From a virus: a stretch of DNA of 29,260 bases. Under the pieces are notes generated by a model that did no database searches, was not told the DNA's origin, and saw nothing but the letters and a program-made list of their open reading frames with translations. Positions 11,795 to 28,428 of the stretch are shown piece after piece. The translations under genes and the position numbers were made by a program. Every line of letters begins with the position of its first letter. Position 1 is the stretch's first letter. The stretch lies in the IMG/VR virus record IMGVR_UViG_3300036770_002597, positions 1-29,260 of that record; one strand, written 5' to 3'.

Positions 11795-12344
11795 ATTAAA
11801 TGATTTGATAAAAGTTTATGATAATGTATTAGAGTCAAATGTCTGTAATTTCCTTATCAATCTTTTTGAACAAAATGAAGATAAACATGAAAGAGTTGAA
11901 AATGATAGAAGACCAAATTTTACACAATTTAATTTAACTGAAAACTGCAAAATTTCCGAAGAAGTAAACAACGTTCATAATTTTCTTATCTCTAAAGTTT
12001 TTGAGTATAAGAAAAAATATTATGAATATATTGATGATAGATGTTTTCCGAAGGAACATAATTTTGAGCAATTTCGGATCAAAAAATACAATCCAGAATT
12101 GCAGGATCAATTTGATACTCATGTAGATGTGATTGATCATGCTTCTTCTAGAAGATTTTTATCTTTTATGTGGTATTTGAATGATGTTAATGAGGGAGGT
12201 GAAACAGTATTTGAAAATTTGATTATTAGACCAAAACAAGGAAGTATGCTAATATTTCCTCCTCTGTGGACATTTCCTCATAGAGGTAATCCTCCAGAAA
12301 AAACAGCAAAGTATATTATGAGTACATACCTTCACTATAAGTAA
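11784..12344 (+). CDS. 2OG-Fe(II) dioxygenase (prolyl 4-hydroxylase-like)
   Basis: 186 residues from ATG 11784; the upstream ATG at 11754 would add uvsX antisense-frame residues. The double-stranded beta-helix core has the iron ligands H113 and D115 (FDTHVDV) and H166 (WTFPHRGNPP), with a basic residue shortly after for 2-oxoglutarate, in KTAKYIMSTYLHY. FMWYLNDVNEGGETVFENL is the typical P4Hc stretch. Such enzymes are very common in T4-like cyanophages; substrates (protein, nucleic acid or a metabolite) are unknown. The position between uvsX and gp41, with overlaps on both sides, suggests expression with recombination and replication genes. Confidence 0.88.
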   Translation: MAIELNDLIKVYDNVLESNVCNFLINLFEQNEDKHERVENDRRPNFTQFNLTENCKISEEVNNVHNFLISKVFEYKKKYYEYIDDRCFPKEHNFEQFRIKKYNPELQDQFDTHVDVIDHASSRRFLSFMWYLNDVNEGGETVFENLIIRPKQGSMLIFPPLWTFPHRGNPPEKTAKYIMSTYLHYK

Positions 12345-14770
12345 TGGAAAAAATTGAATTTTTAATTCTACGAAATTTAATACACAATGAGGAATACCTA
12401 AGGAAAGTTTTACCTTTTATAAAAGAAGATTATTTTGAAGATCTAGAACAAAAAATTGTATTTGAAGAAATTTCTGAATTTGTTCTTGAATATAATAATA
12501 TTCCAACTAAGGAAGTTCTTTGCATTGAAGTTGAGAAAAGAACAGATGTAAACGAAGATCAATTTAAAAAACTTGTGCATCTTATTTCTCATCTTGAGAA
12601 TGTTCCTTGTGAGCAGAATTGGTTAGTTGATACAACTGAAAAATGGTGTAGGGACCGTGCCATTTATTTGGCACTTATGGAATCAATTCAACTTGCCGAT
12701 GGAAATGGTACTATTAAATCAAGAGATGCAATTCCATCAATTTTACAGGATGCATTAGCAGTTTCTTTTGATAATCATGTAGGACATGATTACCTACTTG
12801 ATTATGAACAAAGATATGAATCTTATCACAAATCAGAGGATAAAATTGAATTTGACCTTGATTACTTTAACAAAATCACGAAAGGTGGTTTGCCTAACAA
12901 AACTCTTAATATTTGTTTAGCTGGAACTGGTTGTCATGGGAAGGGAACAAAAATTCTTTTATATGATGGCACTGTAAAATCTGTTGAAGATATAAATTGC
13001 CAAGATATTTTAGTTGGTGATGATGGATCTCCAAGATTCATTAATTATCTTATTAGAGATAGAGGGCAAATGTATAAAATTAAAATCAATGATACAAATG
13101 ATGAAATTATTATTAATGAAGACCATATTCTTTCTCTAATTAATACTAGCACAAAAAAAATAATCAATATAACCGTAAAAGATTATCTGAGTAAATCTGA
13201 AAAGTTTAAACATCTTCATAAATCTTACTACAATAAAACGCAGGTTCCATTTTCAAAGAAAAATTTATCTGTAGATCCATATTTTATGGGGTTATATCTT
13301 GGAGATGGACATACACACAGTTTATCACTGACTAGTGCTGATTATGAAGTTTTGGATTATGTAAAATCTTATATTTCTGAAAATTTCGATTATATTGATA
13401 TAAAAGAATGCAATAATGGTTCAAGAGCAACTACTCTAAAAATGATTGATAATTGTTATTTTGGTTTTGGTCAGAGAGTAAATAGACTTTCTACAATATT
13501 TAAATCTTATGGTTTGAATATTACTCAACTTGAAGATAGAACAAAATGCGGTGAAAAATTTATTCCTTTTGAATATAAAACTTCATCTATTGATGATAGA
13601 CTTCAATTAATTGCTGGATTGATTGATAGTGATGGATATAAAATTGCTAATGGTTGTTATTCTATAACTACTAAGTCTAAAAAAATGGCAGATGATATCG
13701 TTTTTGTTTCTAGAAGTCTTTGTTTTGGATCTAAAATTACTAAAAAATATATAAAAGATTCTCTATACTACAATATCTTAGTGACTACAACACCAAGTTC
13801 TCCTCAAATTATACCCTGTAAAATAAAAAGAAAACAATCAATTGATGTTTATACAAAAAATAAAAATCCATTACATAAATCATTTACCATTGAAAAATTA
13901 AATGTTGATGATTACTATGGGTTTAATCTAAGTGGAAATAATCTTTATTGTTTAGATAATTTTATTATTACTCATAATACTGGTAAAAGTCTCTTTATGT
14001 GCCACGTAGCAGCATCAGTTCTTCTACAAGGTAAAAATGTATTGTACATTACGCTTGAAATGGCAGAAGAAAAAATTGCTGAGCGAATTGACGCAAACCT
14101 TTTGAATGTAAATATTAAAGATATTATAGATCTTCCAAAATCTATATTTGAAACTAAAGTAAATAATATTGCAAAGAAAACACAAGGATCTTTAATCATT
14201 AAAGAATATCCTACTGCTTCTGCTCATGCTGGACATTTTAAAGGACTTTTAAATGAACTTTCTCTCAAGAAATCATTTAGACCTGATATTATTTTTATTG
14301 ACTACCTTAATATTTGTGCTTCCTCTAGGTATAAAGGAAATAGCAACATCAACTCTTATTCATATATCAAGTCGATTGCTGAAGAACTTCGCGGATTGGC
14401 TGTGGAATTCAATGTTCCCATTGTCAGTGCGACACAAACTACAAGAGGTGGTTTTGGGTCATCTGATCCAGAATTAACAGATACTTCAGAATCCTTTGGT
14501 CTTCCTGCTACTGCTGATCTTATGTTTGCCCTTATTAGCACAGAGGAACTTGAAGAACTAGGACAAATACTTGTGAAGCAACTTAAGAACCGTTACGCAT
14601 CAACTGATAAATATAGAAGGTTTGTATTGGGTATTGACCGCTCTAAGATGAGATTGTATGATGTAGAACAGAGTGCTCAATCCGATATTCAAAAATCTGG
14701 AAATGATTTTGAGTATGAATATCGGGACGAACAAAAACCAAAAAAGACATTTGATGGATTTAAGTTCTAA
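12344..14770 (+). CDS. 41: Replicative DNA helicase gp41 with in-frame intein
   Basis: 808 residues. Without the 349-residue intein (197-545) the product is 459 residues, matching T4 gp41 (475). The N-extein holds the N-terminal domain and ends ICLAGTG; the C-extein resumes TGKSLFMCHVAASVLLQGKN. Together they rebuild the P-loop AGTGTGKS. Later parts include IFIDYLNICASS (Walker B-like), VPIVSATQTTRGGFG and the nucleotide-sensing GIDRSKMRLYDVEQ. gp41 is the hexameric 5'-3' helicase that recruits primase gp61. The unspliced precursor lacks a P-loop and should be inactive. The start overlaps the oxygenase stop by 1 base. Confidence 0.93.
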   Translation: MEKIEFLILRNLIHNEEYLRKVLPFIKEDYFEDLEQKIVFEEISEFVLEYNNIPTKEVLCIEVEKRTDVNEDQFKKLVHLISHLENVPCEQNWLVDTTEKWCRDRAIYLALMESIQLADGNGTIKSRDAIPSILQDALAVSFDNHVGHDYLLDYEQRYESYHKSEDKIEFDLDYFNKITKGGLPNKTLNICLAGTGCHGKGTKILLYDGTVKSVEDINCQDILVGDDGSPRFINYLIRDRGQMYKIKINDTNDEIIINEDHILSLINTSTKKIINITVKDYLSKSEKFKHLHKSYYNKTQVPFSKKNLSVDPYFMGLYLGDGHTHSLSLTSADYEVLDYVKSYISENFDYIDIKECNNGSRATTLKMIDNCYFGFGQRVNRLSTIFKSYGLNITQLEDRTKCGEKFIPFEYKTSSIDDRLQLIAGLIDSDGYKIANGCYSITTKSKKMADDIVFVSRSLCFGSKITKKYIKDSLYYNILVTTTPSSPQIIPCKIKRKQSIDVYTKNKNPLHKSFTIEKLNVDDYYGFNLSGNNLYCLDNFIITHNTGKSLFMCHVAASVLLQGKNVLYITLEMAEEKIAERIDANLLNVNIKDIIDLPKSIFETKVNNIAKKTQGSLIIKEYPTASAHAGHFKGLLNELSLKKSFRPDIIFIDYLNICASSRYKGNSNINSYSYIKSIAEELRGLAVEFNVPIVSATQTTRGGFGSSDPELTDTSESFGLPATADLMFALISTEELEELGQILVKQLKNRYASTDKYRRFVLGIDRSKMRLYDVEQSAQSDIQKSGNDFEYEYRDEQKPKKTFDGFKF
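12932..13978 (+). mobile_element. LAGLIDADG intein in the gp41 Walker A motif
   Basis: 349 codons. The intein begins with Cys (CHGKGTKILLYDGTVKSVED, N-terminal splicing block) and has a block B-like NEDHILSLI. It carries two LAGLIDADG-type motifs, GLYLGDG (316-322 of the precursor) and LIAGLIDSDG (422-431). It ends with block F/G, YYGFNLSGNNLYCLDNF and IITHN. The +1 extein residue is Thr. The insertion lies between G and T of the P-loop, a classic conserved insertion point. The combination predicts self-splicing plus a homing endonuclease. All splicing residues (C1, penultimate H, terminal N, T+1) are present. Confidence 0.9.
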
Positions 14771-15021: not shown

Positions 15022-15432
15022 ATGACTCAAAAAATTGACACTGAAAAATATGTTGAATTTGTACGCCAAACTACCAGTCCGGCAAGTAGCGATTTTCCTT
15101 CTCTGCTTTCTCGCTTAACTGAACTTGAAGCACAAAATGCTGATGTATGTCGTTTGATGACTGCTGCTTATGGTCTTACTGCCGAGGCAGGTGAGTTCAC
15201 TGAGGTTGTGAAAAAAATCTTCCTTCAAGGTAAACCTTATAATGAAGATAATGTATTTCATATGAAGCGTGAACTTGGTGATATTTGTTGGTATCTCGCA
15301 CAGGCATGTATGGCACTTGGTATTACTTTTGATGAAGTTCTTGAAATGAATTTCCAAAAACTAAGTGCTCGTTATCCAGAAGGAACTTTTAATGTTCATT
15401 ATTCTGAAAATCGTAAAGAAGGCGATCTTTAA
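15022..15432 (+). CDS. mazG: MazG-type nucleotide pyrophosphohydrolase
   Basis: 136 residues. The metal-binding helices are visible: GLTAEAGEFTEVVKKIF (E55, E58, E61) and KRELGDICWYLAQ (E84, D87), the EXXE...EXXD pattern of all-alpha NTP pyrophosphatases. Cyanophage MazG enzymes hydrolyse (d)NTPs to monophosphates; early proposals linked them to (p)ppGpp, and more recent work favours dGTP/dCTP-type substrates. Here it could recycle nucleotides from AT-poor host DNA into an AT-rich phage pool (inference). It has its own promoter and an AAAGGAG SD (15001-15007, rather distant), and is followed by a late promoter. Confidence 0.9.
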   Translation: MTQKIDTEKYVEFVRQTTSPASSDFPSLLSRLTELEAQNADVCRLMTAAYGLTAEAGEFTEVVKKIFLQGKPYNEDNVFHMKRELGDICWYLAQACMALGITFDEVLEMNFQKLSARYPEGTFNVHYSENRKEGDL

Positions 15433-15448
15433 TTGAAATAATTTTTAT

Positions 15449-15470
15449 TATAAATACTTAGAAAGTATTT
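15449..15470 (+). promoter_or_regulatory. T4-type late promoter overlapping a small hairpin
   Basis: TATAAATA (15449-15456) is followed by an AAATACTT (15452-15459) / AAGTATTT (15463-15470) inverted repeat. The 5' arm is part of the promoter, so a late mRNA starting near 15462 cannot form the hairpin. The downstream gene at 15479 is virion-like, fitting late expression. Confidence 0.7.
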
Positions 15471-15478
15471 GTAGAAAA

Positions 15479-16096
15479 ATGAATTCTAAACTTTTCAGAG
15501 AAGCAACTCTTTCTTATTATGCAGTCTATGATCAAGATCTCCGTGAAGAAATGGAAGAACTTGGTATGTTTAATTCTGTAGATGAAGCAAGAGCACCTGG
15601 AGTAAAGCCTTACAGACCTGGACCTACTGGTGCTGAAGTTAGAGCAGATGCTGCTGCTGCTGAGAAAAAAAGAAAAGAATCTGGCAAAGATAAACCAGGA
15701 TATGGTCCTGAGGATAAATTTAAGAGTGATTGGAAACTAAAAGCAACTCCTTCAACTGTAAATAAGAAAGGTCAAACTGTTTCCCAAAGAATGGATTCAG
15801 AAAAGCCTTATGCCAAGAGAATGACTGGACCTCTCGCTAGAAAGCAAGGAAGTCGCACTGCTTCCAATATCACAAGAGCACTTGAGGGTCCCGGTGAACC
15901 TCAAGCAGTAACTCTTCCAAGAAAGAAATCAACTGTATCAAAAGAAATTATCCGTAAGACTAAAAATGAAGAATATGATATTTATGATGTAGTTCTTTCT
16001 CATCTTCTTGATGAAGGTTATGCTTCAACAGTAGAAAATGCTGAAGCAATTATGGCAAATATGAGTGAAGATTGGATCAATAGCATTATTGACTGA
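15479..16096 (+). CDS. Late, probable virion-associated protein
   Basis: 205 residues behind a late promoter. The centre is basic, Pro/Gly/Ala-rich and low in complexity (PGVKPYRPGPTGAEV, AAAAEKKRKESGKDK). The C-terminus EEYDIYDVVLSHLLDEGYAS plus AEAIMANMSEDWINSII is a module I recognise at the ends of several late structural-type proteins of T4-like cyanophages. No enzyme motif is present. It may be a head-internal or scaffold-associated protein; the exact role is unknown. A terminator-like hairpin follows. Confidence 0.62.
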   Translation: MNSKLFREATLSYYAVYDQDLREEMEELGMFNSVDEARAPGVKPYRPGPTGAEVRADAAAAEKKRKESGKDKPGYGPEDKFKSDWKLKATPSTVNKKGQTVSQRMDSEKPYAKRMTGPLARKQGSRTASNITRALEGPGEPQAVTLPRKKSTVSKEIIRKTKNEEYDIYDVVLSHLLDEGYASTVENAEAIMANMSEDWINSIID

Positions 16097-16119
16097 ATAA
16101 TTTAACAAATAAAAAATTA

Positions 16120-16159
16120 ATATCCTCTTTCTAAATAAAGGAAAGAGGATATTTTTTTA
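16120..16159 (+). promoter_or_regulatory. Terminator/hairpin hiding the SD of the next gene, with late motif in the loop
   Basis: ATATCCTCTTTC (16120-16131) pairs perfectly with GAAAGAGGATAT (16141-16152) and is followed by seven T. The loop, with the last base of the 5' arm, spells CTAAATA (16131-16137), the cyanophage form of the T4 late promoter. The only SD for the ATG at 16159 is AGAGG (16144-16148), buried in the 3' arm. A late transcript would start near 16143 and free it. Confidence 0.72.
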
Positions 16160-16848
16160 TGGCTGGACAAAAAGGATTTGCTTATGAAAATATTATATAC
16201 AATGAATTATTGAAAGAAAATTTAACAAATAATAGGTATAGACCTTCTCAATCCGATAATACAAAACCAGATACAGCATTTTTAGTTAATAATACTTATT
16301 ATAATTTGGAAGTTAAATTGGATTTATCTGCCGATTTTGGTCAGGGAACTTTAAGATATAATTTTAATGATAAAAAATGGTTTACATATTCTGAAAGTTC
16401 TAAAATGAAAGAACTTTTGGATTACTATAAAGTTGATGAATTTGCAAATAAAGAGTGGACTAAAGTTCCTAATAAGGTAAATAGAAATGATAAAGGAAGA
16501 ACTCCAACTAATCTTACTCAACAGCAGATTAGGGAAGATAATATAAACTTTCCCGATAAATATTTAACTCTCAGAGGAAGAAATCCAATAGCAGAATATT
16601 ATAATAGTAAAGATGTTTATTATATTCAAATTGGACAACTTTATGGATTCTATTATATGGGCAAAGATAAAGCAAATCTGGGTGTCCCTGAATTTAATCC
16701 AAGAGAGCAAAAAATTAGAATAAGAAGAAAAGGAAGTGGAGGCGGAAATTATAGGTTTACAACTTCACTTATCATCACTACAAATATACCTAGATCAAAT
16801 TATGATATAGATGCAAATTTAAACTTTATTATAAATGCGTCTCGATAA
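16159..16848 (+). CDS. Putative PD-(D/E)XK nuclease-like late protein
   Basis: 229 residues. The N-terminus has GFAYENIIYNELLKE. Then KPDTAFLVNNTYYNLEVKLD gives the proline-aspartate and, 14 residues later, the E-V-K of a PD-(D/E)XK nuclease core, followed by LSADFGQGTLRYNF. An acidic residue in the first helix (E10) also fits. The C-terminal half is beta-rich and basic (REQKIRIRRKGSGGGNYRF) and may bind DNA. Members of this class include Holliday-junction resolvases and restriction or recombination nucleases; the substrate here is unknown. Placed in the late island, it could process packaged or recombining DNA, or act in competition between phages. The assignment rests on motifs only. Confidence 0.55.
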   Translation: MAGQKGFAYENIIYNELLKENLTNNRYRPSQSDNTKPDTAFLVNNTYYNLEVKLDLSADFGQGTLRYNFNDKKWFTYSESSKMKELLDYYKVDEFANKEWTKVPNKVNRNDKGRTPTNLTQQQIREDNINFPDKYLTLRGRNPIAEYYNSKDVYYIQIGQLYGFYYMGKDKANLGVPEFNPREQKIRIRRKGSGGGNYRFTTSLIITTNIPRSNYDIDANLNFIINASR

Positions 16849-16871: not shown

Positions 16872-18143
16872 ATGAAGAAATTTTCCCACTTTATAATAGA
16901 AGCAAAAGAAACCAGAGCATCTGAACAGGCTAAAAGAGCTGGTTTAGTTGGTAATGGGCATGGAGATTGGTATAATGCTCAGGGAGAATTTGTGGCAAAA
17001 ACCGTAAATGGAATGCTTAAATATTTTAATAAAGGTCAAAGAGTTGGAGAAAGAGATGTTCCTCCAAAACCTGGAATCCCTTCTCCAGCAGTAGTTGCTC
17101 CTCAACAAGCATCTCAGCAAAAACAACCAGTTGCTACTAAAAGGGTAGATGGTAATCAAAAGGAAATGCCAGCAGATGGGGAATATTTAACTGTTGTTTT
17201 AGCTAGATTTAACCCCCCAACAAAAGATCATAATCAATTATTTTCTGCGGCAGATAGAGCATCTATGGGAGGTGAAGTTAGAATATATCCATCAAGAGCA
17301 GAAGATTCTAAAAAGAATCCGTTAAATCCTGATAAAAAAATAAATTACTTAATGAAAATGTTCCCAGAAATTTCTGAGATTATTGTTAATAATCCAGAAA
17401 TAAAAACTGTTTTTGATGTTCTAATTGCTGCAAATGAGGATGGATATACAAATATTAATATTGTAGTTGGATCAGATAGATTATCTGAAATACAAAGTTT
17501 AGCAAATAAACATAATGGACAGTTTTATCAATTTGATAGTATAAATGTAATTCCCACAGGAACCTTTGATTCTGAAAAAACTACTTTAGGAGTTTCTTCA
17601 GGAATGTTAAGAAAAACTGCTGCAGATAATAATTTTAGAGATTTTAAAAGGGGAATGCCTAAAACTATTAAAGATCCTGATGTTAAAAGGTTATTTAATG
17701 ACTTAAGAAAGTCTATGGGATTTTCTCAAACAACAAAAGAAAATTATCATCTATGGGAAATTGCTCCAGATCTTGATTATAAAAATCTAAGAGAAAATTA
17801 TATTCAAAATAAAATTTTTAAAATTAATGATATTATAGAAAATCTTAATACAGGCCTTATTGGTAAAGTTATTCGTAGAGGAACTAATTATTTAATTTGT
17901 GTCACTGAAGATGATGTAATGTTTAAGTCTTGGATAAAAGATGTAATGGAAGTTAAAGATACTGTTAGAAAAGTAACTTTTAAAAAATTAAGAGAAGAAG
18001 TAAAAAGATTTACTGATGTATCTGGTGTTCCTTCTGACCAAAGATTAGTTGGAACAGATCCATATAGGGAATATACTATGAAAATGTCTCATGTTAAAAA
18101 AATTACTAATTTTATAAATAAATATAAGAAAACTCCTAAGTAA
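16872..18143 (+). CDS. Nucleotidyltransferase-domain late protein (NMNAT/cytidylyltransferase-like)
   Basis: 423 residues in three parts. Residues 1-60 form an N-terminal module, MKKFSHFIIEAKETRASEQ then AGLVGNGHGDWYNAQGEFVA, shared by many late cyanophage proteins. Residues 103-285 form a Rossmann-type nucleotidyltransferase: VVLARFNPPTKDHNQLF, where the second His of the HxGH motif is kept (H120), NIVVGSDRLSE and VSSGMLRK (the ISSxxxR-like motif). Residues 310-420 carry LNTGLIGKVIRRGTNYLICV and a GVPSDQRLVGTDPYREYTM tail, a small beta module typical of structural proteins. Related cyanophage genes are annotated as nicotinate/nicotinamide nucleotide adenylyltransferase. The first His of HxGH is replaced by Thr-Lys, so activity is uncertain. 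Confidence 0.68.
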   Translation: MKKFSHFIIEAKETRASEQAKRAGLVGNGHGDWYNAQGEFVAKTVNGMLKYFNKGQRVGERDVPPKPGIPSPAVVAPQQASQQKQPVATKRVDGNQKEMPADGEYLTVVLARFNPPTKDHNQLFSAADRASMGGEVRIYPSRAEDSKKNPLNPDKKINYLMKMFPEISEIIVNNPEIKTVFDVLIAANEDGYTNINIVVGSDRLSEIQSLANKHNGQFYQFDSINVIPTGTFDSEKTTLGVSSGMLRKTAADNNFRDFKRGMPKTIKDPDVKRLFNDLRKSMGFSQTTKENYHLWEIAPDLDYKNLRENYIQNKIFKINDIIENLNTGLIGKVIRRGTNYLICVTEDDVMFKSWIKDVMEVKDTVRKVTFKKLREEVKRFTDVSGVPSDQRLVGTDPYREYTMKMSHVKKITNFINKYKKTPK

Positions 18144-27086: not shown

Positions 27087-27139
27087 AACAAACTGAACTC
27101 TAATACTATTTATATAATATTATTAGAGTTCAGTTTGTT
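27087..27139 (+). promoter_or_regulatory. 19-bp perfect inverted repeat between nrdB and GIY-YIG gene
   Basis: AACAAACTGAACTCTAATA (27087-27105) and its exact reverse complement (27121-27139) flank a 15-base AT loop. The 3' arm ends 3 bases before the endonuclease ATG at 27143, so it covers any ribosome site. It may also end nrdB transcripts, though no T-run follows. The loop holds TATTTATA (27107-27114), which is TATAAATA on the - strand; no forward late motif is seen. Confidence 0.65.
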
Positions 27140-27142
27140 AAA

Positions 27143-27886
27143 ATGTATTATGTTTACGAATTAATAGACCCGAGAGTTAATCTTCCTTTCTATGTTGGAA
27201 AGGGTAAAGGTAATCGGGTCTATTTTCATTTATCAGAACAATCAAGGGCAAAATCAGACAACTTTAAAAAGTTTGATAAAATTAAAAAAATAAGAAAGGA
27301 AGGTTATGAACCTGAATTCAAAATAGTTAAATATTTTGAGGAAGAAAATGATGCTTATGATTATGAAGAGGAACTAATCAAAAAATATGGAAAAAGAGAT
27401 ATTGATGAAGGTGGAATATTAACGAATATTTGCGAAAGTTCAAGGCCACCAAGGTTAAATGGTAGAACCTATCAAGAAATATATGGAGATAAGTGGAAGG
27501 AACAAATCCAAAAAAGATTAAAGACCAAAGAAGAAAGGGGAAACTATGGTGGCGTAAGAAAACACACAGAGGAAACTAAAAAGAAAATAAGTGAGAAAGT
27601 ATCTGGTAAGAATAATCCAAGTTATGGAGTTCCTTGTAGTGAAGAAAGAAAAAGAAAAATAAGTGAAAGAGCAAAGGCAAGATTTGCAAATGGGTTTGTA
27701 TCTCCATCAGCAAAAACTTGGATATTAATTTCTCCTCAAGGAGAAGAGTTTATAATAACTGGAAAACTTAAAGAGTTTTGTAAGTTAAAAAATATTTCAT
27801 ATGCAACTATGAGTGCTGCTATTAAGTATGATAGGACTGGACCAAGAAAAAATGGTTGGAGTATCAAGGAACTTATAAATACCTAA
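27143..27886 (+). CDS. GIY-YIG homing endonuclease (Seg-like) with NUMOD modules
   Basis: 247 residues. The GIY-YIG domain is N-terminal: YYVYELIDP (2-10), FYVGKGKGNRVYFHL (16-30, including the catalytic Arg) and AYDYEEELIKKYGKRD (the catalytic Glu region). NUMOD3-type repeats follow (KHTEETKKKISEKVSGKNNP, YGVPCSEERKRKISERAKAR). The C-terminal helix-turn-helix tail is ISPQGEEFIITGKLKEFCKL, then ATMSAAIKYDRTGPRKNGW. An intact free-standing homing endonuclease inserted after nrdB. T4 relatives of this class (SegA-G) cut near their own insertion point. No clear SD is visible, and the region before the start is in a perfect hairpin. The stop codon overlaps a late promoter. Confidence 0.88.
   Translation: MYYVYELIDPRVNLPFYVGKGKGNRVYFHLSEQSRAKSDNFKKFDKIKKIRKEGYEPEFKIVKYFEEENDAYDYEEELIKKYGKRDIDEGGILTNICESSRPPRLNGRTYQEIYGDKWKEQIQKRLKTKEERGNYGGVRKHTEETKKKISEKVSGKNNPSYGVPCSEERKRKISERAKARFANGFVSPSAKTWILISPQGEEFIITGKLKEFCKLKNISYATMSAAIKYDRTGPRKNGWSIKELINT
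27874..27881 (+). promoter_or_regulatory. T4-type late promoter TATAAATA
   Basis: A perfect late motif within the last codons of the GIY-YIG gene, followed by CCTAAAAAGTATTTGTA. The 25-base block from here is almost identical to the late promoter block at 15449. Confidence 0.7.
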
Positions 27887-27944: not shown

Positions 27945-28376
27945 CTAAAGAGTTTCTAATAATAAACTCTTTCCAACTAAATTATAAATCCTATCAACTT
28001 CACTACTGAAAAACTTACCTTCAACATTCGTATTATAATAATCTTCTTTGAAGATTACATCTCTTTTGAATTGTTCCATAGTCTCATAAAAACTCATAGA
28101 TTTTTTATGAGGGCATAAGTAAAGTATTTCTCGGAGAAATTTATCTCCTCCTAGATTTTTTACATCTTCAATTAATTCGTCGCAAGATCCAAAGTATTTT
28201 TGCCAATCGCTTTCTTTCGTTTTTCTACGACCTGTCTTACGATCTTTTTGACGAGTCCAAAAATGTTTTTTACCAATATATTTTTTATTATTAGTTAGAT
28301 TTGTAATAATATAAACAAATCCTTCCATATCCTTTGGTGTTTCTGTAAATTCTTGATTGTTATATTTCCAGGACAT
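27945..28376 (-). CDS. GIY-YIG endonuclease on the opposite strand
   Basis: 143 residues from ATG 28376 (MSWKYNNQEFTETPKD); a GTG at 28412 and an ATG at 28388 are alternatives. The GIY-YIG core reads GFVYIITNLTNNKKYIGKKH, then a basic stretch WTRQKDRKTGRRKTKESDWQ and YFGS. SFYETMEQFKRDVI carries the catalytic Glu and NVEGKFFSS is near the end. It belongs to a family of short phage GIY-YIG nucleases often listed as putative homing endonucleases. It has no NUMOD tail, unlike its neighbour. It is the only convincing gene on the - strand, and a + strand late promoter (27874) points into it, so late transcription would run antisense to it. Confidence 0.8.
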   Translation of the reverse strand: MSWKYNNQEFTETPKDMEGFVYIITNLTNNKKYIGKKHFWTRQKDRKTGRRKTKESDWQKYFGSCDELIEDVKNLGGDKFLREILYLCPHKKSMSFYETMEQFKRDVIFKEDYYNTNVEGKFFSSEVDRIYNLVGKSLLLETL

Positions 28377-28428
28377 TAAAACATACATATTGATAGAACT
28401 ATCTATAATCACTTTCTAAACTGTCCAC

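Follow-up and report, generated by a model that had tools for sequence, protein, structure and literature searches.

The late genes e, soc and I-TevI of bacteriophage T4 lie on long early or middle transcripts and are expressed from late RNA in which the RBS-masking hairpin is missing its 5' arm (PMC3014915, PMC2988022). The published late consensus of cyanophages is NATAAATA (PMC2984593), and CTAAATA is the late form of phage Aeh1 (PMC1524935). Here we analyzed a 29,260-base IMG/VR stretch, called the window throughout, which comes from an uncultivated T4-like cyanophage (Kyanoviridae) and matches Synechococcus phages such as S-SRM01. Its gene order is gp43, uvsX, gp41, mazG, cytidylyltransferase, gp61, nrdA and nrdB. 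The genes gp43-uvsX-gp41-mazG are located on the + strand upstream of a variable gene at 16159, which is thus preceded by early/middle genes of its own strand as in the T4-type switch. No report of the sequence cassette in front of this gene, or of the slot in which the gene sits, was found in the open-access literature.

Three further features of the window are recorded here for themselves. The gp41 helicase gene (12344-14770) contains an intein with a LAGLIDADG endonuclease that splits the Walker A motif (Pfam Hom_end_hint, 1.5e-16, residues 197-544), and a SegE-like GIY-YIG endonuclease gene (27945-28412; PF19835, 2.6e-37) lies on the minus strand, while almost every other gene is on the + strand. 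At its N-terminus (MKKFSHFIIEAKETRASEQAKRAGL, 16872-16970) the cytidylyltransferase resembles the capsid-targeting leaders of T4 internal proteins, and by this analogy it might be packaged and injected.

The hairpin in front of gene 16159

Downstream of the stop of gene 15479-16096, the sequence up to and including the ATG at 16159 contains, in this order, AATATCCTCTTTC-TAAATAAAG-GAAAGAGGATATT-TTTTT-ATG. The features of the locus are:

15022-15432, + strand: mazG-like gene, upstream landmark of the slot
15449-15473, + strand: second late-motif palindrome, TATAAATACTTagaAAGTATTTGTA, preceding gene 15479; similar ones occur in relatives
15479-16096, + strand: gene 15479, between mazG and the cassette, product without known function
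16119-16131, + strand: 5' arm of the hairpin, AATATCCTCTTTC (sequence, terminator scan and folding)
16131-16137, + strand: CTAAATA, candidate late-promoter motif of the cyanophage [A/C]TAAATA class (enrichment before starts)
16132-16140, + strand: hairpin loop, TAAATAAAG; an optional U16132-G16140 pair shrinks it to 7 nt
16141-16153, + strand: 3' arm of the hairpin, GAAAGAGGATATT (sequence, folding and covariation in relatives)
16143, + strand: predicted late +1, from the T4 spacing (PMC1524935)
16144-16148, + strand: Shine-Dalgarno (SD) sequence AGAGG, paired in read-through RNA and mostly open in the predicted late RNA
16152-16158, + strand: U7 tract, intrinsic-terminator-like, abutting the ATG; 16152-16153 are shared with the 3' arm
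16159-16848, + strand: slot gene, 229 aa, predicted HhaI-like PD-(D/E)XK nuclease fold; phrog_26930, a family of unknown function
16872-18143, + strand: cytidylyltransferase-like gene (phrog_395), downstream landmark of the slot

The stem consists of 13 Watson-Crick pairs (16119-16131 with 16141-16153) plus the optional closing G-U pair. With a folding z of -4.4 it was matched in stability by 0 of 200 shuffles, and stems of at least 13 Watson-Crick pairs with a loop of 3-12 occur twice in the window and never in 20 dinucleotide shuffles. A terminator scan counted 14 pairs together with the U-tract and reported a terminator. The element indeed has the form of an intrinsic terminator, a stable stem of 13-14 pairs followed immediately by U7, and the G+C content of the stem is only moderate for a terminator. 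The C of CTAAATA is the final paired base of the 5' arm, and AGAGG, 10 nt upstream of the ATG, is the only SD sequence of the gene. In read-through RNA the probability that GAGG is unpaired is about 0.00, which corresponds to the sequestration known from T4-type switches, and in RNA that starts at the third base of the 3' arm (16143) it averages 0.69, so that at the level of sequence the predicted promoter would free the RBS. Sequence and folding therefore confirm what a previous sequence-only reading of this DNA had described, a perfect stem that masks AGAGG and carries CTAAATA at its loop; only the stem length of 12 bp given there has to be corrected. That reading did not contain the terminator shape of the hairpin, its fusion to the ATG and its membership in a conserved one-slot cassette.

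CTAAATA and the conserved cassette

In the window itself CTAAATA is not more frequent than expected by chance (8 found, 9.5 expected), and all eight copies are on the + strand. We counted XTAAATA motifs in front of the predicted genes of four records, P-SSM2, Marine virus AG-345-E02, S-8S53 and P-TIM40, for which the chance expectation per record is about 0.2-2 for ATAAATA/CTAAATA and about 0.2-0.8 for CTAAATA. In this order of records, the sense:antisense counts were 16:0, 5:0, 14:2 and 16:0 for CTAAATA and 35:1, 11:0, 20:0 and 18:0 for ATAAATA, with weak or no enrichment of GTAAATA and TTAAATA. In P-SSM2 the late motif precedes gp8, gp18, gp20 (CTAAATA), gp3 and uvsW (CTAAATA), and it is absent before gp43, uvsX, gp41, mazG, gp61, nrdA and nrdB, all of which were checked. 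As the published consensus is NATAAATA, the case for CTAAATA rests on the present enrichment and on phage Aeh1. Judged by these counts it appears to be a genuine late-type motif in the four cyanophage records, and its place in the cyanophage late-promoter consensus gains support.

Scanning IMG/VR for TCTTTCTAAATAN{1,6}GAAAGA, we found 47 stretches, in 35 of which the gap is exactly 3. When four positions in each arm were left free (CCCCNNNNTCTAAATANNNGANNNNGGGG), the scan gave 45 hits; 43 of these pair at every free position, and in all 45 the ATG of an open reading frame follows 6-10 nt downstream. A loop-scrambled control pattern gave one hit. Both scans are conditioned on CTAAATA. Each of the 12 records checked (the longest 171 kb, some of them fragments) contains a single copy of the core pattern, and a pattern search did not find the cassette in bacterial genomes. 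Among 17 cassettes, which were chosen as distinct variants and are mutually related, two-sided changes were observed in 7 of 13 pairs and 95.9% of the cells are paired, compared with 57-69% in slid controls; with the out-of-register L075 and L249 included, the paired fraction is 91.9%. The 8 nt after the stem contain 6-7 T in 28 of 34 distinct cassettes and fewer than 5 in two. The compensating stem changes around a fixed CTAAATA support the assumption that the cassette stems are under selection. Covariation of the paired bases had been proposed as a check of the sequence-only reading, and in the close cassette family stem changes are compensated, with arms that change without a matching partner mostly missing there.

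A single-protein search for close relatives of the slot gene found none. An alignment-based search yielded 227 relatives, of which 80 loci with 54 distinct upstream contexts were kept, and [ACG]TAAATA is located 10-45 nt before the ATG in 45 of these 54 contexts. In 15 of the 45 motif contexts a helix spans the predicted +1 at p<0.05 (about 2 expected; p-values against shuffles that hold the motif fixed). In the tested genomes such a +1-spanning hairpin (p<0.05) was present in 5/5 family members compared with 15/124 other motif genes, which has a hypergeometric probability of about 6e-5, or about 4e-4 if the near-identical P-SSM2/E02 pair is counted once. In the nearest relatives, L045 (73%), L048 (52%) and L075, the stem is altered but CTAAATA is still at the loop; the arms of L048, for example, are AATCCCCTATTTC/GAAATAGGGGATT. 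In L100 and L124 SD-masking stems without a U-tract follow immediately after TATAAATA, in L047, L114 and L103 a plain terminator is followed by a separate late motif, and in L049 and L051 tRNA 3' ends precede the late motif. Many of the more distant homologues keep the late motif without any hairpin, so the gene does not depend on the lock in every phage. Judging from these upstream sequences, the late promoter would be the constant and the hairpin one recurrent way of insulating the gene.

SD masking differs between the relatives as well. Only 8 of 19 homologues with a recognisable SD sequence clearly gain SD openness on the late RNA, so masking alone is insufficient to explain the family, and some hairpin-bearing relatives lack an SD sequence in the 3' arm, as S-8S53 does, or have no clear one anywhere, so that masking is not the common factor either. 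An inverted repeat could also arise from divergent late promoters; this was rejected at the window locus, where the neighbouring genes are all on the + strand, and it does explain the inverted repeat at S-8S53 44352/45376. In terminators before homologues of gene 15479 (L281, L288, L290, L315, L327, L351) the U-tract enters TATAAATA directly, and the late-motif palindrome comes next.

The slot and its changing genes

The AlphaFold2 model of the 16159 product, built with 48 homologues, reached a pLDDT of 94.5. VIA-align placed HhaI first (PDB 6uke, Z 11.5 over 179 residues), followed by I-Ssp6803I (2ost, Z 7.9 over 121 residues), the Hjc resolvase (7.5) and HinP1I (6.7), and E10, D38, E51 and K53 are invariant in the 48 homologues. 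Both the PD-(D/E)XK fold and the D...ExK active-site residues are therefore present in the prediction. With Foldseek alone no match reached E <= 0.001, the sequence had no significant match among solved structures, and for the window protein Pfam and NCBIfam returned nothing and PHROGs only a family of unknown function. In a non-systematic inspection of the neighbouring genes no partner methylase came to light. On the basis of VIA-align and the invariant residues we take the product as a predicted HhaI-like PD-(D/E)XK nuclease, by which the earlier assignment to PD-(D/E)XK-like proteins is upheld and sharpened, with HhaI as the nearest fold.

The slot has the same flanking genes wherever the contig is long enough, with gp41-mazG and a homologue of gene 15479 upstream and the cytidylyltransferase downstream. 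The occupants comprise several HhaI-like subfamilies (profile-profile probability 94-99.7%), a family of 471-516 aa and four or more others, mostly of unknown function. At least five unrelated slot families carry a D..SxK signature (D..(I/V)SxK), which from sequence may be a PD-(D/E)XK variant. In detail, E97/D198/S247/K249 are invariant in 30 members of family F2, for which the AF2 model (pLDDT 86) had no informative structural match; families F2-F6 had no Pfam family above the cut-off, and the F2 and F4 proteins no match among isolate phages. A survey anchored on the cytidylyltransferase and not on the hairpin showed that the mazG-cytidylyltransferase interval is hypervariable. Of the loci with a sizeable gene other than 15479 in this interval, 65 of 73 carry a late motif on it. 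What S-SRM01 has at this place is a gene of 133 aa together with two tRNAs and a late motif, but no such nuclease; other phages carry different genes there.

It is possible that the mazG-cytidylyltransferase interval is a single nuclease slot, in which unrelated nucleases swap behind a fixed cassette, are made late only and hence are tolerable; the slot would then be a bay for exchangeable weapons or selfish genes when co-infecting phages compete. We put this forward tentatively, because the fold evidence covers one family only. The combination of a conserved cassette and a variable gene offers a handle for finding hitherto unrecognised late nuclease-like genes and lets one ask how phages tolerate and swap DNA-cutting enzymes.

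Hairpins with a late motif are also found elsewhere. Ranked by length, the perfect hairpins of the window are led by those at 27087-27139 (19 bp), 1543-1585 (18 bp) and 16119-16153 (13 bp). On one strand, each of these three has a late motif at its loop, which the two 11-bp hairpins do not have. The 27087-27139 hairpin (z -8.9) abuts the ATG of a GIY-YIG/NUMOD3 endonuclease gene (27143-27886). In most relatives of this gene the loop TATAAATA points at the gene and the arms covary, including a compensated C/G exchange; in the window and in L358 the middle of the hairpin is inverted and the motif points away from the gene, as in a flipped promoter. The 1543-1585 hairpin, with TATAAATA at the loop, precedes an HNH-like frame (1586 to about 2110; HNH call by eye) that has no ATG at its start, is broken by stops and frame changes, and gave no Pfam match for its first 84 codons. 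Judging by its sequence, this frame may be what is left of an endonuclease gene under a switch of this type.

Before uvsW of P-SSM2 (122884-122909, AY939844.2) and of AG-345-E02 (53648), CTAAATA occurs with a 9-bp hairpin over the SD sequence that touches the ATG. A late promoter drives uvsW in T4 (PMC3016281), and the uvsW of these cyanophages may therefore be an example of this switch acting on a gene that encodes no nuclease. CTAAATA in an inverted repeat before the ATG was also observed for P-SSM2 176711 (PSSM2_218) and S-8S53 81456, which are homologues of each other and of the window's SegE-like GIY-YIG protein (about 42% identity); the annotation of PSSM2_218 as NAD synthetase looks wrong. 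The idea that the phage applies the switch to toxic nucleases in general thus stands in so far as several nuclease genes have such hairpins, but uvsW and gene 15479 have them too. The designation of the 16159 protein as non-homing is not supported, as some phages have the gene and others lack it in a slot with changing occupants, and the two other long late-motif hairpins precede homing-type endonuclease genes.

A probable late-only switch and its relation to known systems

Taken together, we consider it probable that the locus is a promoter within a terminator, combined with an SD lock, which restricts expression of the nuclease to the late phase. Transcripts arriving from gp43-uvsX-gp41-mazG and gene 15479 would fold the hairpin and mostly stop in the U7 tract before the ATG, and RNA that reads through would keep AGAGG inside the stem and stay untranslated. 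Late in infection, a gp55-type late RNA polymerase would recognise TCTAAATA at the loop and initiate near 16143. As this RNA would lack the 5' arm, neither the terminator nor the lock could form, and a 16-nt leader would present an open SD sequence for the HhaI-like nuclease, which would be made late only. Computed support comes from the hairpin, the U-tract, the motif enrichment, the compensating stem changes, the fixed position before the ATG, the slot and the fold. The use of CTAAATA, the position of the +1, actual termination, the late-only timing and harm caused by early nuclease are what we infer. The central proposal of the sequence-only reading, a late promoter within an SD-masking hairpin with a 5' end predicted in the 3' arm, agrees with the enriched motif, the covarying arms and the change in SD openness from 0.00 to 0.69.

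The element could also be a plain intrinsic terminator of gene 15479 or the early operon, with CTAAATA at the loop and the nearby ATG being coincidental in an A+T-rich, tightly packed genome. The stem-loop and U-tract do have terminator form, and both the relatives in which a plain terminator precedes a separate late motif and the terminators before homologues of gene 15479 would fit, but chance hardly accounts for 45 of 45 cassette hits with the ATG at 6-10 nt and CTAAATA at a fixed loop position, for the one hit of the scrambled loop, or for the late motif in all three window hairpins of at least 13 bp and in neither of the 11-bp ones; we regard this explanation as unlikely. We give about the same small chance to a purely translational lock of the T4 style, in which the SD sequence is masked on read-through RNA, no termination takes place and the U-run is merely the spacer between SD and ATG. 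T4 e, soc, I-TevI and segB as well as Aeh1 mobE act by RBS sequestration, L048 combines a perfect stem with an interrupted U-tract (GGGGATTATTTTAATG), and the stems of L100 and L124 mask the SD sequence without any U-tract. The T-richness behind the stem in 28 of 34 distinct cassettes speaks against such a spacer, as does S-8S53, where a hairpin with U8 has no SD sequence in the 3' arm and only termination explains the arrangement.

It would finally be conceivable that the palindrome acts as DNA, as a recognition or recombination site, for instance one that the slot nuclease binds as its operator or cleaves, or one where crossovers swap the slot genes. In favour of this, the cassette stays constant in front of changing genes, and I-TevI binds an operator overlapping its own late promoter (PMC2988022). 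A protein or crossover site, however, is expected to conserve the stem letters, and these vary with compensation even before the same gene family while the loop motif and the ATG spacing stay fixed, which makes this explanation very improbable. A swap through homologous recombination in the shared leader is possible and compatible with the promoter-in-terminator switch.

In its promoter placement the switch proposed here resembles T4 e, soc, 49 and I-TevI, whose late RNA escapes an RBS-masking hairpin; it differs from them in that a terminator-like U-tract reaches the ATG, the motif at the loop is CTAAATA, and the element is a conserved one-slot cassette with changing genes. As in Aeh1 mobE and T4 segB, the hairpin masks the start of a free-standing endonuclease gene among early genes, and Aeh1 also uses CTAAATA (PMC1524935) like the window cassette, whereas the gene guarded here encodes a predicted HhaI-like PD-(D/E)XK protein and not an HNH or GIY-YIG enzyme. 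The predicted fold is the one shared with HhaI (6uke) and I-Ssp6803I (2ost). Going by its sequence, we read the element as a variant of the e/soc/I-TevI/mobE switch to which a terminator has been added. This would carry a classic control principle of T4 into the cyanophages, which are among the most abundant virus groups of the ocean, and add a further layer to it, as one hairpin would combine termination of transcription with masking of translation, both undone by the position at which the promoter starts.
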